Part shown: in pieces, positions 543 through 23,841 of the stretch | Numbering within the stretch: the stretch's first letter is position 1 | How the letters are laid out: each line of letters begins with the position of its first letter | Virus record (IMG/VR): IMGVR_UViG_3300045240_000024 | Location: 1-48,197 of that record | Source: a virus | Direction: 5' to 3' (one strand) | DNA: 48,197 nt | Translations under genes and position numbers: made by a program | The notes under the pieces: generated by a model | Told to the model about the DNA's origin: nothing | Seen by the model: the letters and a program-made list of their open reading frames with translations, nothing else | Databases searched by the model: none

Positions 543-2531
<1,989 letters not shown>

Positions 2532-2552
2532 TTGCTTCTCTCCAAAGGGGTT

Positions 2553-2575
2553 CGGGCGCGCCACAGGCGCGCCCG
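2553..2575 (-). other. Intergenic hairpin between AAA+ and VWA genes
   Basis: A perfect 10-bp inverted repeat (CGGGCGCGCC / GGCGCGCCCG) has a 3-nt ACA loop. It lies in the 51-bp gap between the two leftward genes, just upstream of the VWA ribosome binding site. It could tune the relative expression of the two subunits or protect the mRNA 3' end. Confidence 0.6.
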
Positions 2576-2582
2576 GCGTTCG

Positions 2583-4253
2583 TCACAGAGTGTCGTTGTC
2601 GTCCGGGAATTGCAGCGCCGTTGCGCCAACGCTCCCTTGCGCGTGAGGGTCAATCTTGGGCGCGTCCGGGTCCAGCGTCCCGCGCACAATCGCGTCGATG
2701 TCCAGATGCGCGCTCGCCAGCGAGGTTGTCGCCAAGCTTTCCAGAACGGCGCGATCTTCCGGCGCAGCCGCCGCGATGATGATCGCATGGAACGCTTTCG
2801 CGCTCGGCACGCCAACGCGCACCGTGCGCGCCCACGCCAACAATCGCCGGGGCGTGACGCCCATTGTCAGCTTACCGCTATCAGCTTGCGCCCGCGTGAG
2901 GTTGGCGTAGTCAACCATTGGCTTGGCAATCGCCGCGTGAACGCTCGCCCGGTGCGCCAGCATCGAAGTCTCTTGCGCCGCCGTGAGATACGAAAATTCG
3001 GTTCGCATCGCGAAACGATCCAAAAACGCCGCGTTGACAGGAGCCGTGTCCACATAGCGCCCGGTGTCGTCACCTGTCCCGTTGGTGTTGTCAGCCGCGA
3101 TCACAAAAACGCCGGGCGCAGCGTCAACAACTTCTCCGCTCGCGAGCCACAAACGCCGCTTGTCGAGCGCTGTCTGTAGCACCGCGAGCGTGCCGCTTCG
3201 AAGCAACGTGGGCTCGTCAATCAAGATCACGCAATGCGCGATCCGAAAGGCGCGCGTGAGCTTGCCATCCTCCCAAACCATGCCACCCGATTTTGAAGGC
3301 ACCATTTGCCCGATTAGCTCGGCGGGCTCGGTCGTTCGTTCAATCGCGATGCGAACGAAGGGGCGCACGAGCCTAGCGGCGTATTGCTCGCAACCATCGG
3401 TTTTCCCAATGCCAGCGGGGCCGAAAATCCAAGCGTTTAAGCCGCAATCGTCTTGCGCCGCGATTTGCGCCAGCGTCTCAGGGTTCCACACATAGTCGGG
3501 ATCGACGGCGGGCGCGCCCGCGTAGTCGCACACATTCACGAGCAAGGTTTCGAGAACATGCTTCAGCGCTGCGCCGCCTTCGCCCTTGCGAAGCCCAAAG
3601 GCTTGGTACAAGGGCACGCGCTTCCGAATGGCGACGTTCGGCGGCGCGCTCGCGACCGTGGCTTCGCCCGGCGCGCCCGGTGCGCCGCCTTGAATGGTCA
3701 CGGTCTTGACGATTGTGCGCGGGCCTCGTGTTGCGGCTTCAGCAAGGGGCCGAATGAGCCCCGGCATCATGCTCGCAAGGTGAGGCGTCATATGCGGGCT
3801 CGCGGCCGCGAGCGCTTCAGCAATCACAGTCTCGACATCGCCGCCTTCGAAGCCTTCGCCCATGTCTTTGTCCTCCTCATCAGGGTCCATCGGAAAAGAG
3901 ATCGCGGCGGCGCTCGGCTCGCCCGGCGCGATATGCGCCAGCGCCTCGACGTTCGCGGGCTCATCGCCAGCGTCCGCGTCAACCATGTCCATCGCCGCCT
4001 CCAAAGCTTTCTGTCCAGCGCCGGGCGGGATTGCAGCCACGAGCCCGGTGACAAAGTCGCTCTTGGCGCGCACAAGATCGAAGCCCAAAGCCTCGCACGC
4101 CGCGATGATCTCAGCCCGCGTCAAAGCTTGCGTCCGGTTTTTCCAGCCTTGAGCAACGACATAGTCGCGCCAGCCGCTCGACGCTTTTAACCTTGGCTTA
4201 ACGTAATTCCGAAACTCGCGCCCCAGTTGCAGATGATCATATTTGCCTGACAT
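2583..4253 (-). CDS. CobS/MoxR-like AAA+ ATPase
   Basis: A 556-residue protein with a dynein-related AAA+ core in its C-terminal half. Walker A is GPAGIGKT (about residues 277-284) and Walker B is VILIDEP (about 341). After them come the NTNGTGDDTGRY segment and the FLDRFAM (arginine finger) motif typical of CobS ATPases. The N-terminal 200 residues are variable and acidic. CobS-type ATPases work with VWA partners such as CobT to remodel metal-chelatase or other complexes; the partner gene follows directly downstream. CobS-like genes are known in many tailed phages. The start is uncertain: ATG at 4253 (MSGKYD) is used here, while GTG at 4262 adds three residues and sits closer to a GAGG. The first gene of the leftward operon, it has no CAGACAC motif. 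Confidence 0.85.
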   Translation of the reverse strand: MSGKYDHLQLGREFRNYVKPRLKASSGWRDYVVAQGWKNRTQALTRAEIIAACEALGFDLVRAKSDFVTGLVAAIPPGAGQKALEAAMDMVDADAGDEPANVEALAHIAPGEPSAAAISFPMDPDEEDKDMGEGFEGGDVETVIAEALAAASPHMTPHLASMMPGLIRPLAEAATRGPRTIVKTVTIQGGAPGAPGEATVASAPPNVAIRKRVPLYQAFGLRKGEGGAALKHVLETLLVNVCDYAGAPAVDPDYVWNPETLAQIAAQDDCGLNAWIFGPAGIGKTDGCEQYAARLVRPFVRIAIERTTEPAELIGQMVPSKSGGMVWEDGKLTRAFRIAHCVILIDEPTLLRSGTLAVLQTALDKRRLWLASGEVVDAAPGVFVIAADNTNGTGDDTGRYVDTAPVNAAFLDRFAMRTEFSYLTAAQETSMLAHRASVHAAIAKPMVDYANLTRAQADSGKLTMGVTPRRLLAWARTVRVGVPSAKAFHAIIIAAAAPEDRAVLESLATTSLASAHLDIDAIVRGTLDPDAPKIDPHAQGSVGATALQFPDDNDTL

Positions 4254-4262
4254 ATCAATCAC

Positions 4263-20061: not shown

Positions 20062-21177
20062 ATGGCTTTCACAGCAGGCGAACTCGCGAGCATCGCTAAC
20101 TCGGCGCTCGACTTCTACTTCAACAAAGGCGGTCAGTTCGACCAGACGATCCAGAACAAGCCGCTTCTCAATCTGTTTGAGAGCCGCAAGAAGACGTTCC
20201 CGGGCGGCAAGGGCAACATCTCGCTCGCAGTCGTCGGCACCTACGGCGACGGCTCCGGCAACGATGTCGTCAAGGGCTACACCCACAACGACGCCGTCGG
20301 GTTCTTCACCCCGGCCAACGTCAAGCGGGCGAACTTCCCGTGGCGCGAACACCATCTTGGCTTGACGCTCACCCACACCGAACTGAAGATCGACGGCATC
20401 TCGGTCGTAGACACCAACGGCGAGAAGACCACCGAGCACTCCAAGCGCGAGATGACGGTTCTTGTGAACCTCCTCGAGCAGAAACTGTTCTCGCTGGGCG
20501 AGCAATACGCCCGAACGATGAACACGCTGATGTGGGCTGACGGAACCGGCGACGCAAAAGCTCTCGCCGGGATGCAGTCGATCATCAAGGCGAACCCCTG
20601 CACTGGCACGGTGGGAGGCATCGACCAGACGACCGCCACGGGGTTCAACTGGTGGCGCAACCGTGCTCGTACAGCGGCGATGGCGACCCAGATCGGTACG
20701 GTGCCTGCGGACGCGATCTCCGGCGGCGACGCGATCACGTCGGCGACGACCGCGGGCGGCGCGCTCCTTCAGGCGCTGCAACACGAGTATTTCCAGCTTA
20801 TCCGTTACGGCGGCAAGCCGACGGTCGCGTTCGCCGGAAGCGCTTTCCTCGACGCCCTGATGATCGAGCGCCGGGCGAACGGCTTCTACTCGATGACCGG
20901 GTTCTCGCAGTCGCAGGACATTTCGTCGGGCGACATCATCCTGCCCGGCGGAACGAAGGTGCAGTACGATCCGACGCTGGACGATCTCGGGTTCTCGAAG
21001 CGCATGTATTGGTTCGACCCGAGAAACATCTTCCTGATGGCGATGGAAGATGAATGGCGCAAGGACCACACCCCGGCGCGGCCCTACAACATTTTCGTCC
21101 TCTACAAGTCGATCACTTCGACCGGCCAGATCGTCGGGAGCCAGCTTAATTCGTCGCTGGTCATCGACATCAAGTGA
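20062..21177 (+). CDS. Major capsid protein
   Basis: A 371-residue protein, the usual length for short capsids of HK97 fold. It begins MAFTAGELASIANSALDFYF and has the GGIDQTTATGFNWWRNR element typical of one phage capsid family (about residues 186-203). It follows the scaffold gene at a 20-bp gap. Codon usage is the most regular of the window, as expected for a highly expressed gene. A hairpin pair downstream may end or attenuate the transcript. Confidence 0.85.
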   Translation: MAFTAGELASIANSALDFYFNKGGQFDQTIQNKPLLNLFESRKKTFPGGKGNISLAVVGTYGDGSGNDVVKGYTHNDAVGFFTPANVKRANFPWREHHLGLTLTHTELKIDGISVVDTNGEKTTEHSKREMTVLVNLLEQKLFSLGEQYARTMNTLMWADGTGDAKALAGMQSIIKANPCTGTVGGIDQTTATGFNWWRNRARTAAMATQIGTVPADAISGGDAITSATTAGGALLQALQHEYFQLIRYGGKPTVAFAGSAFLDALMIERRANGFYSMTGFSQSQDISSGDIILPGGTKVQYDPTLDDLGFSKRMYWFDPRNIFLMAMEDEWRKDHTPARPYNIFVLYKSITSTGQIVGSQLNSSLVIDIK

Positions 21178-21184
21178 CGCTAGG

Positions 21185-21273
21185 ATCGCTGGGTAGGCCA
21201 GCGATAGCGACCCCCCTAAGTCGTGTCTGGTGTTTCTGAGAACCGGGGCCGGGGAACGGACAAAGCTCCCCGG
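21185..21273 (+). terminator. Two hairpins after the capsid gene
   Basis: An 8-bp stem (ATCGCTGG / CCAGCGAT, 21185-21205, loop GTAGG) and a second 7-bp stem (CCGGGGA / TCCCCGG, 21249-21273). Neither has a U-tract, so partial termination or mRNA processing is more likely than full termination. A GTGTCTG heptamer lies between them. Confidence 0.5.
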
Positions 21274-21295
21274 AACCCGATGCGGGAGTTCAGTC

Positions 21296-21478
21296 ATGGC
21301 AAAAGGCTCGATCAAGAAGTCAGGGACGTTCCAAGGCAAGAGCAACAAGTTGGGTCACGGCGGCCGCGCCGCCCAGCTTGAAGCGAAGGGCGTACCCGGA
21401 GGCGTGATCGGGGACTTGGCCCGCAAAGCGCAGGCCGCGCCCGGCCAGAAGAATTACCACGGAGGGCGAAAAAAGTGA
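21296..21478 (+). CDS. Small basic protein
   Basis: A 60-residue Lys/Gly-rich protein (MAKGSIKKSGTFQGKSNKLGHGGRAAQLEAKG) ending in HGGRKK. A GGGAG site lies 7 nt before the ATG. It starts a tightly overlapping set with the two anti-defence candidates after the capsid gene. The high positive charge could suit nucleic-acid binding or a capsid-associated role. I do not recognise a family. Confidence 0.65.
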   Translation: MAKGSIKKSGTFQGKSNKLGHGGRAAQLEAKGVPGGVIGDLARKAQAAPGQKNYHGGRKK

Positions 21479-21702
21479 CCGGAGAGACCATCGGCTGGGC
21501 CGTCAAGCAAATGCACAACGGCGACAAAGTTCGACGCGCAGGCTGGAACGGCAAGGGCATGTGGCTCGAATTGCAGACACCGGACGCGCATTCCAAGATG
21601 ACGTTGCCCTACGTCTATATGTCCACGGCGCAGGGCGATCTGGTGCCGTGGCTGTGCAGCCAGACCGATTTGCTGGCGACCGATTGGGAGACTGCAAATT
21701 GA
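21475..21702 (+). CDS. tad2: Tad2-family (DUF2829) anti-Thoeris protein
   Basis: A 75-residue protein matching the DUF2829 pattern along its length: TIGWAVKQMHNGDKVRRAGWNGKGMWLEL at the start, and a C-terminal LVPWLCSQTDLLATDWE. Tad2 proteins of this family bind and sequester the cyclic ADP-ribose-type messenger made by Thoeris, so they block NADase activation. Assignment rests on family resemblance, not on tested activity. The GTG start overlaps the upstream stop in GTGA, and the next gene (TTG in TTGA) follows the same way, so the two probable sponges are translated together. Confidence 0.8.
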   Translation: MTGETIGWAVKQMHNGDKVRRAGWNGKGMWLELQTPDAHSKMTLPYVYMSTAQGDLVPWLCSQTDLLATDWETAN

Positions 21703-21926
21703 GCATTTCTAGCGAGAGCGACGAGCGCACCGCCAACAACACGGTGCGCCACCAGTACCGGACGCTCACCGAGGAAGAGAAGAAAGCGATGATCGCCGTC
21801 AAGGACGCGGGCCTTGCGCTTCTCGAAACGCTCGACCGTTTTTGCCACCCGGGGCGTGAGACATCGCTCGCCAAGACCAAGGCCGAAGAAGCCGTCATGT
21901 GGGCGGTCAAAGGGATCACCGGGTAG
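21699..21926 (+). CDS. acb2: Acb2/Tad1-family small protein
   Basis: A 75-residue protein from TTG 21699. It carries the hairpin-domain signature RHQYRTLTEEEKKAMIAVKD and the closing SLAKTKAEEAVMWAVKGITG, typical of small phage Acb2/Tad1-domain proteins. Family members act as sponges for cyclic nucleotides made by CBASS (and, for Tad1, Thoeris). Lying 4 bp into the end of the Tad2 gene, it completes a two-sponge pair placed between capsid and tail-adaptor genes. Some Acb2-domain proteins have no proven anti-defence role, so function is probable, not certain. The TTG is the only start between the two stops that fits. Confidence 0.72.
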   Translation: MSISSESDERTANNTVRHQYRTLTEEEKKAMIAVKDAGLALLETLDRFCHPGRETSLAKTKAEEAVMWAVKGITG

Positions 21927-21983
21927 GGCAACCCCTCTCGGTGTCTGCGCGTTGATAGTGCGTTCGACACAGGAGAACCCATC

Positions 21984-22631
21984 ATGGCTTTCAAAGACAA
22001 CCACAAGCCCCCGGCTCCCCCGGTCAAGGGGTTCCCCGGCCAGAAACACTCGCCGTCGCCCAGCGCGTCGCAACCGCCCCGGCCTCCGCAGCAACCGCCG
22101 GGATCGCCGCCCAAGCCGTCCGATCCAGCGCCCCGGCCCGGGCAACCGGCTCATAGCGGATCGGCTCCCCGCGATCCTGTGCTGGGAGACGTTGAACCGT
22201 TGCGACGCGAAACTGAGACGCTTCCCGTGGCGGCGCATCCCGGCCCTGATCGCGACGAGCCCGTCGGCCACGCGCGCCACGCCGAGACACCCGAGGAAGT
22301 CGAGAAGATCTCGGCTATGGAAGGCTTCGGCGCTTCCAGCAATCGTCGCGTTCCGCCTCCGGGTTCGCCCCACTATGTCGCGGGGCAACCCGTCGATGAC
22401 GAAGAGTGGGAGAAGACCGAGCGCGAAGCCAATCGCCTCGCTGAAAAAGGCAGGGAGCAGCGCAGCGAAGCCGAGAAGCGGATCGCTGAGAACAATCAGG
22501 GCGATCCGAATTATCACCCGGCGGACCCGGACCACCGCGATCCGCAAGCCGGTGGAAAGCGCGGAGAACTCAACCCTGATCCGCACACCAAAGACGAAGA
22601 CGACGACAGGAAGAACAAGGGGAAAAAGTGA
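21984..22631 (+). CDS. Disordered proline-rich protein
   Basis: A 215-residue protein, Pro/Gln/Ser-rich over the first 100 residues and highly charged after (EKTEREANRLAEKGREQRSEAEKR), ending in Lys. A strong AGGAGAAC site precedes the ATG. A longer frame across the same DNA gives a Ser/Arg-rich shadow and is rejected. Its place in the head-completion block suggests a minor structural or assembly protein; no domain is recognised. Confidence 0.6.
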   Translation: MAFKDNHKPPAPPVKGFPGQKHSPSPSASQPPRPPQQPPGSPPKPSDPAPRPGQPAHSGSAPRDPVLGDVEPLRRETETLPVAAHPGPDRDEPVGHARHAETPEEVEKISAMEGFGASSNRRVPPPGSPHYVAGQPVDDEEWEKTEREANRLAEKGREQRSEAEKRIAENNQGDPNYHPADPDHRDPQAGGKRGELNPDPHTKDEDDDRKNKGKK

Positions 22632-23038
22632 ACGAACGCGAAGAAGGCTACATGCAGCAGCATCTTTGCTCCTGCATGATCGACATTGCGGGCGAGGGTC
22701 TTACCGTCGTCAACCGCGACGCCGACAATCCGGTGGCGTGGCCCGAGATCCTCGTCCTGCAATCGCTCCACGGCGACCAGAGTGTGTTCGACATCAAGCC
22801 GGTGGCTCTTGGCCCGCGTGAGACGCAACTGCGCGAAAAAGACCGCATGATGTCGATCTACGGGCGCGACGCGGTCGAGGCGGTCTACGCGGGCAAGGGC
22901 TTCACGATGGAGTGGTTCATGCCCGGGTGGCCCATCGACCCGGCGAAGGCGTCGAAGCGCCAGCAAAAGACGCTGGCGCGGGAAAAGCGTGTCCAGAGGC
23001 ACGAACCGGACGAAGAGGCGGCTGACGCCCGCATCTGA
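22628..23038 (+). CDS. Conserved-type hypothetical structural-region protein
   Basis: A 136-residue protein starting at GTG in a GTGA overlap. It has a well-mixed composition with alpha/beta character (VLQSLHGDQSVFDIKPVAL, MMSIYGRDAVEAVYAGKGF) and a basic helical C-terminus. It sits between the disordered protein and the adaptor gene. A head-completion or minor capsid role is inferred from position only. Confidence 0.6.
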   Translation: MNEREEGYMQQHLCSCMIDIAGEGLTVVNRDADNPVAWPEILVLQSLHGDQSVFDIKPVALGPRETQLREKDRMMSIYGRDAVEAVYAGKGFTMEWFMPGWPIDPAKASKRQQKTLAREKRVQRHEPDEEAADARI

Positions 23039-23055: not shown

Positions 23056-23841
23056 ATGGCCCCGCGCTCGATGGAAGTCGGCGTCGCGCTGAGTGAGCTT
23101 CGCCGTCGCCTGATGGCCGAGACGTTTCAGTCCCTCAACCCGAACCAGACGACATCCTCAGTCCCGTTCTACAACTACCAGCTTGACCGCGTGCAGCGCG
23201 AGCAGTGGAACGAGATCGAGTGGCCGCACCTGACGATTTACAAAGACATGCCGATGGTCGCAGGCCAGCGCTACTACGACTATCCGCCACAGTTGCCGTT
23301 CGACAGCATCTTCAGGATCTGGTGGCCGCAGGGCGTGACGTGGGTGCCTCTCGACTATGGCATTACCCCCCAGACCTACGCGACGATGGGCGGCGAGAAC
23401 ATTCAGGCGTGGCCGCCCCGGCGCTGGCGCAACTGCGCGCTCTACGACGAAGTCTCGGGACAGACACAGCCCGCGGCGCAGTTCGAAGTGTGGCCGACGC
23501 CCGGACCCAGCACGCCCTTCTCGCTTCGCATCGAGGGCAACGCGCCGTTGAACACCCTCGTCGAAGACACCGACATCTGCGTGATCGACGCGACGCTGAT
23601 CGTCTTGTTCGCTGCGTCCGAGATCCTCGCCCAGCAAAAGAGCGAGAGCGCTTCGCTCAAGCTCCAGAAGGCCAACCAGTACCGGCGTCTCTTGGTGGCG
23701 CGCCTCGGCGCGCAGCAGCGCTCGATGAAGTCGCTCTCCAAAGATGGCGGCCACATGGGACCGATTGCCGACGGGCGTCGCCTGACGCCCTATCTCGACT
23801 TCGTGCCTGCGTACCAGCAACTCGGAGGACCGGGTAGCTGA
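23056..23841 (+). CDS. Head-to-tail adaptor-like protein
   Basis: A 261-residue protein with mixed helices and a beta domain. The segment ALSELRRRLMAETFQSLNPNQTTSSVPFYNY opens it, and the central part contains LTIYKDMPMVAGQRYYDYP. Length and position, before the nozzle-like gene, resemble podovirus adaptor proteins (gp11-type) that join the portal to the tail. An AGGAGGG site lies upstream. It overlaps the next gene by one base. Confidence 0.65.
   Translation: MAPRSMEVGVALSELRRRLMAETFQSLNPNQTTSSVPFYNYQLDRVQREQWNEIEWPHLTIYKDMPMVAGQRYYDYPPQLPFDSIFRIWWPQGVTWVPLDYGITPQTYATMGGENIQAWPPRRWRNCALYDEVSGQTQPAAQFEVWPTPGPSTPFSLRIEGNAPLNTLVEDTDICVIDATLIVLFAASEILAQQKSESASLKLQKANQYRRLLVARLGAQQRSMKSLSKDGGHMGPIADGRRLTPYLDFVPAYQQLGGPGS

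Follow-up and report, generated by a model that had tools for sequence, protein, structure and literature searches.

A recurrent two-gene cassette of Tad2-like and Acb2-like proteins in the head module of a virus genome

The analysed DNA, here called the window, is a 48,197-base IMG/VR record of a soil phage with genes for terminase, portal and major head protein. It contains two overlapping genes, one of the Tad2 and one of the Acb2 family, which together make up a cassette at a site in the head module whose content varies. The same pairing recurs in many unrelated phages. The cassette is probably a counter-defence device, with Tad2 directed against the ADP-ribose signals of Thoeris and Acb2 against the cyclic di- and trinucleotides of CBASS. 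The two families are already known. No report of the recurrent coupled cassette was found in the literature searched, the coverage being incomplete. The features of the region are listed below.

20062..21177, plus strand: major head protein (PHROG 9953, E 3e-34), upstream of the pair, with 78 relatives in IMG/VR
21296..21478, plus strand: small basic backbone protein of 60 aa, coupled in translation to Tad2, which lies downstream; not of a sponge family
21475..21969, plus strand: inserted cassette of Tad2 and Acb2, carried by the window and lacking in the related locus L002, where the site is empty
21475..21702, plus strand: Tad2-like sponge of the short class, 75 aa (PF11195, PDB profile matches, AlphaFold model)
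21699..21926, plus strand: Acb2-like cyclic-oligonucleotide sponge (Acb2_Tad1_hairpin), 75 aa, TTG start (PF24729, profile matches, residues)
21984..22631, plus strand: proline-rich 215-aa backbone protein, 3' of the cassette, conserved in L002, L004 and other loci
23056-23841: downstream head/tail gene, adaptor-like by synteny with Microcystis phage Mae-Yong1326-1

The Tad2 ORF starts with GTG at 21475 and ends with TGA at 21702; the Acb2 ORF starts with TTG at 21699 and ends with TAG at 21926, so that the two overlap by 4 bp (TTGA). Their Pfam matches are far above the curated cut-offs (PF11195, 85.8 bits against 25, E 3e-24; PF24729, 68.2 bits against 27, E 7e-19). An earlier sequence-only reading had proposed such an overlapping pair of Tad2 and Acb2/Tad1-domain genes and had placed it between capsid and adaptor genes, and both statements hold. 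The 60-aa ORF, from ATG at 21296 to TGA at 21478, overlaps the Tad2 start by another 4 bp (GTGA). All three starts are preceded, at 6-10 nt, by purine-rich Shine-Dalgarno-like stretches (gggag, ggaggg, gggaga). Neither sigma-70 promoter-like sites around the pair nor terminator-like sites on the plus strand were seen. Both genes evolve under purifying selection, with dN/dS against relatives of about 0.07-0.13 for Tad2 and about 0.12-0.27 for Acb2. The stop-start overlap would couple translation of Tad2 and Acb2, and one small insertion may thus cover both signalling chemistries.

The boundaries of the cassette follow from comparison with L002, a relative whose head protein is 92% identical to that of the window. 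Two blocks are aligned by blastn, window 21288-21474 with L002 6238-6424 and window 21970-22957 with L002 6457-7429. The blocks carrying the 60-aa and the 215-aa genes are separated by 32 bp in L002 (6424/6457) and by 495 bp in the window (21474/21970), and the latter segment encloses Tad2 and Acb2 and nothing else. No GC shift marks the inserted pair. Since L002 has the 60-aa gene beside the 215-aa gene at an empty site, the 60-aa gene belongs to the backbone and the insertion is a cassette of two genes rather than a triplet. The suggestion that gene 21296 could be a third sponge is therefore abandoned: its product has no match to Pfam or PHROG families and none to sponge families, and its homologue occupies the same place in L002, where the pair is absent. 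Another homologue was found in archaeal phage vir526. A search for the same triplet in other genomes, which the earlier reading had proposed as a check, recovered the pair in other phages and no identical triplet; among 197 loci the 60-aa protein matches only two, L002 and that of the window itself. The 215-aa protein likewise has no family match in Pfam or PHROG.

No relatives of the window among sequenced phages were found by megablast. Judged by the head protein, the closest isolated relative is Microcystis phage Mae-Yong1326-1 (56%), followed by Rhizobium phage RHph_N65 (41%). In the 78 loci with related head proteins, the interval between the head protein gene and the downstream genes varies both in length and in content: up to the adaptor gene it spans 0.02-1.5 kb and holds differing small genes. 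At this cargo site (20062-23038 of the window and loci L002-L027), Acb2 alternates with Ig-like-looking proteins (L010, L023), small basic "MPKILD" proteins and proteins rich in proline. In locus L019, Acb2 occurs without Tad2 and at another point of the interval.

The pairing was analysed in the best 80 relatives of the window Tad2 in IMG/VR, which form 61 clusters without the window. Records of 28 of these 61 clusters contain PF24729 above the cut-off somewhere. By a custom HMM, 17 clusters have a same-strand Acb2-hairpin gene within 85 bp of Tad2, and both orders occur; 0.36 clusters would be expected under uniform placement, a simple null model that ignores the clustering of small accessory genes. 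Independently of this HMM, the ORFs directly adjoining Tad2 in 60 dereplicated loci were compared with Pfam: 20 of the 115 ORFs match PF24729, and the second commonest family occurs twice; the three loci beyond the 17 are L132, L152 and L185. In nearly all pairs a start codon lies at -8 to +4 nt from the upstream stop, and no fusion of Tad2 and the hairpin in one ORF was seen among the pairs examined. The pairs, in both gene orders, fall into about 16 contexts sharing fewer than two flanking homologues; these include mycobacteriophage MalagasyRose and a few loci with long Tad2. Of the nearest 30 relatives of the window Acb2, only one adjoins a Tad2, and thus this Acb2 lineage often travels alone.

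All arrangements are observed at one site between the terminase gene terL and the portal gene of related soil phages. The pair occurs there in either order (L123, L127, L176 and, on the other hand, L141-L143, L148, L150), and the same site may hold Tad2 alone (L119, L126, L136) or Acb2 alone (L088). Thus assembly of the pair is dynamic, and the data suggest that phages keep assembling a double Tad2 and Acb2 counter-defence. One possibility, which has an appreciable chance although we do not favour it, is that two independent sponge genes have accumulated in permissive cargo sites, their adjacency reflecting insertion hot spots and no functional pairing. The variable head-to-adaptor interval, the lone Acb2 of L019 and the mixture of states at the terL-portal site are all in line with this. 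However, other cargo families show no such association with Tad2 (two occurrences for the next commonest, 20 for the hairpin), and the tight spacing of stop and start codons in nearly all pairs also speaks against mere accumulation.

The counter-defence cassette, which remains the preferred reading, can be extended to a more ambitious proposal that we regard as tentative and rather doubtful. It would be a repeatedly assembled module in which a coupled Acb2 systematically makes up for the pocket for cyclic dinucleotides (CDNs) that short Tad2 proteins have lost or never had, and its place within head gene clusters would let the sponges be made at the same time as the head proteins that set off the defences. 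In favour of the counter-defence cassette itself, Acb2 is adjacent in 20 of 60 loci with short Tad2 and in approximately 4 of 47 clusters with long Tad2 (Fisher p 0.002; adjacency cut-offs of about 135 bp and about 160 bp, respectively). Phage lineage is an uncontrolled confounder of this contrast, which may stem from lineage and environment and not from function.

The assignment of the first protein to Tad2 is supported by Pfam, by profile searches of PDB and by the predicted structure. The profile built from 62 relatives matches only Tad2/AcrIIA7 chains in PDB, with E from 4e-22 to 6e-20. The AlphaFold model (pLDDT 91) is superimposed on SPO1 Tad2 (8wje_B) with TM 0.86, and all 24 matches at E <1e-3 in the structure search are Tad2/AcrIIA7 structures; the comparison with Tad2 structures that the sequence-only reading had proposed thus gives a match. 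SPO1 Tad2 (gp34.65; 8smf/8wje), HgmTad2/AcrIIA7, SptTad2 and ModTad2 share with the window protein PF11195 and the motifs GWNGK and SQTDxLAxDW, and the TM values of the predicted fold against known Tad2 structures are 0.77-0.86.

The main difference is in the spacing of these motifs. The distance between GWNG and SQ is 41 residues in the window Tad2 and is nearly constant at 41 across the short class, whereas in relatives of a long Tad2 it is 41-70, mostly 48-70. In this gap SPO1 Tad2 has 13 extra residues and the CDN-binding SptTad2 and HgmTad2 have 24 and 30, the inserted loop being missing from the window protein. According to a review (PMC12043709), Tad2 proteins bind CDNs via an insertion that is located between beta2 and beta5 and is distinct from the pocket for gcADPR. 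This insertion is present in some Tad2 members and is not required for membership in PF11195. Judging from the alignment and the motif spacing, it is lacking in the window Tad2 and throughout its short class. SPO1 Tad2, in which the gap is longer than in the window class, fails to bind 3'3'-cGAMP (PMC11722364). Because the loop insertion that holds CDNs is missing, the prediction for the window Tad2 is that it accepts only signals of the ADP-ribose type, most likely sequestering gcADPR or His-ADPR of Thoeris rather than CDNs. The short-class protein would most likely form a tetramer.

The second protein is modelled as an antiparallel hairpin of two helices, 25-48 and 53-74 (pLDDT 93-99), preceded by 20 N-terminal residues of low confidence. 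The profile of its relatives matches in PDB T4 Vs.4 (Acb2), a recent Acb2 homologue, p26 (Acb2), and then Tad1. Foldseek also ranks T4 Vs.4 and Acb2 first (probabilities 0.99 and 0.93), with E of only 0.25 and 0.84, as a bare two-helix hairpin is generic; pairwise sequence similarity to T4 Vs.4 is weak (E 0.3). The PF24729 helical hairpin is common to the window protein, Acb2 of Pseudomonas phage p26 (8h2j) and T4 Vs.4 (7uq2), and the four residues Y20, K35, R53 and T60 of the window protein align with Acb2 Y11, K26, R67 and T74. The window protein also shares with 8h2j the N-terminal segment Y-R-x-L, whereas its loop between the helices is approximately 20 residues shorter. Y11, K26 and R67 are ligand-contact residues in Acb2 of the PaMx33 type. 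In T4 Acb2, Y8A is deficient in binding and T68M weakens it (PMC12657230); allowing for a numbering offset of one residue in the PDB chain, the equivalents of Y8 and T68 are kept as Y20 and T60. By its length and model, the hairpin gene is Acb2-like rather than Tad1-like. Tad1 (7uav, 8kbe) has the C-terminal hairpin in common with it; the Tad1 identity was rejected, as the 75-aa product has no predicted strands and no room for the N-terminal beta-sheet domain of Tad1. The window Acb2 would most likely form a hexamer and sequester the cyclic di- and trinucleotides of CBASS.

The hairpins paired with Tad2 in loci L130, L141, L140 and L123 form a divergent class that lacks the N-terminal Y-R-x-L segment in the aligned part. 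This segment holds the ligand tyrosine of Acb2, and therefore the ligand of these proteins may differ.

Blocking of both signal types, as the earlier reading had it, is plausible, and is consistent with a short Tad2 devoid of the CDN insertion. It is improbable that the two proteins target one signal class, for instance CDNs, as redundant or broadened binders. Some Tad2 proteins indeed bind CDNs in addition to gcADPR, and Tad1 binds both (PMC12043709), but the absence of the CDN-binding insertion throughout the short class argues against such an overlap here. Very little credence can be given to the idea that these are small structural or head-completion proteins sharing sponge folds: despite the head-module location in the window and many relatives and one weak fold match to the neck protein of a phage (8qkh, E 0.37), almost no phage that shares the head protein carries the two genes, the close backbone of L002 lacks both, and the only credible matches of the Tad2 model, at E <1e-4, are Tad2 structures.

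The location of the cassette in the window conforms to a more general pattern. In 10 of 15 contexts examined (L134, L150, L125, L197, L161, L190, L173, L236, L267, L206), the large neighbours are genes for terminase, portal, head-tail adaptor or major head protein, the placement being counted over contexts of the pair alone. In the remaining five the neighbours are a tail gene (L157), a DNA polymerase (L159), an ATPase (L135), or have no assignment (L192, L094). In MalagasyRose the pair is found just 5' of the terminase genes. Thoeris ThsB1 senses a major head protein (PMC12043709), and escape from CBASS is accompanied by capsid mutations (PMC10419184). Given these ties of head proteins to both systems, production of the sponges together with head proteins, as the position just behind the major head gene would allow, may be sensible timing and of benefit to the phage.

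Simultaneous action on several signals has precedents. In SPO1 (Tad2 and Acb4) and T4 (Acb1 and Acb2), a single phage counters at least two nucleotide signals, or uses at least two means of doing so (PMC11722364); in the window, by contrast, two overlapping genes make one cassette, and the SPO1 and T4 genes are not known to be arranged in this way. Sponges acting singly have been studied in detail. Here two unrelated families recur as a coupled pair, in either order and in a wide range of contexts, and this recurrence may mean that ADP-ribose and cyclic-oligonucleotide signalling are met together often enough to select for a combined blockade. A biochemical prediction is that Tad2 proteins devoid of the insertion bind ADP-ribose-type signals only. 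A practical rule is that the neighbours of Tad2 or Acb2 genes should be inspected for further anti-signalling genes. In Mycobacterium phage Curiosium (517-1216 of locus L115), Tad2 is found upstream of the terminase in a run of small genes that overlap by 4 bp and have no family assignment. No match to PF24729 was observed in this phage, and hence the neighbours of its Tad2 may be other anti-signalling genes.

A separate observation concerns the opposite strand of the window. At 543-4262 on the minus strand, a gene for a CobT-like VWA protein (PF11775/VWA) adjoins a gene for a CbbQ-like AAA ATPase (PF07728, PF08406), and the two constitute an ATPase-VWA pair of the MoxR/CobST type inside a phage genome.
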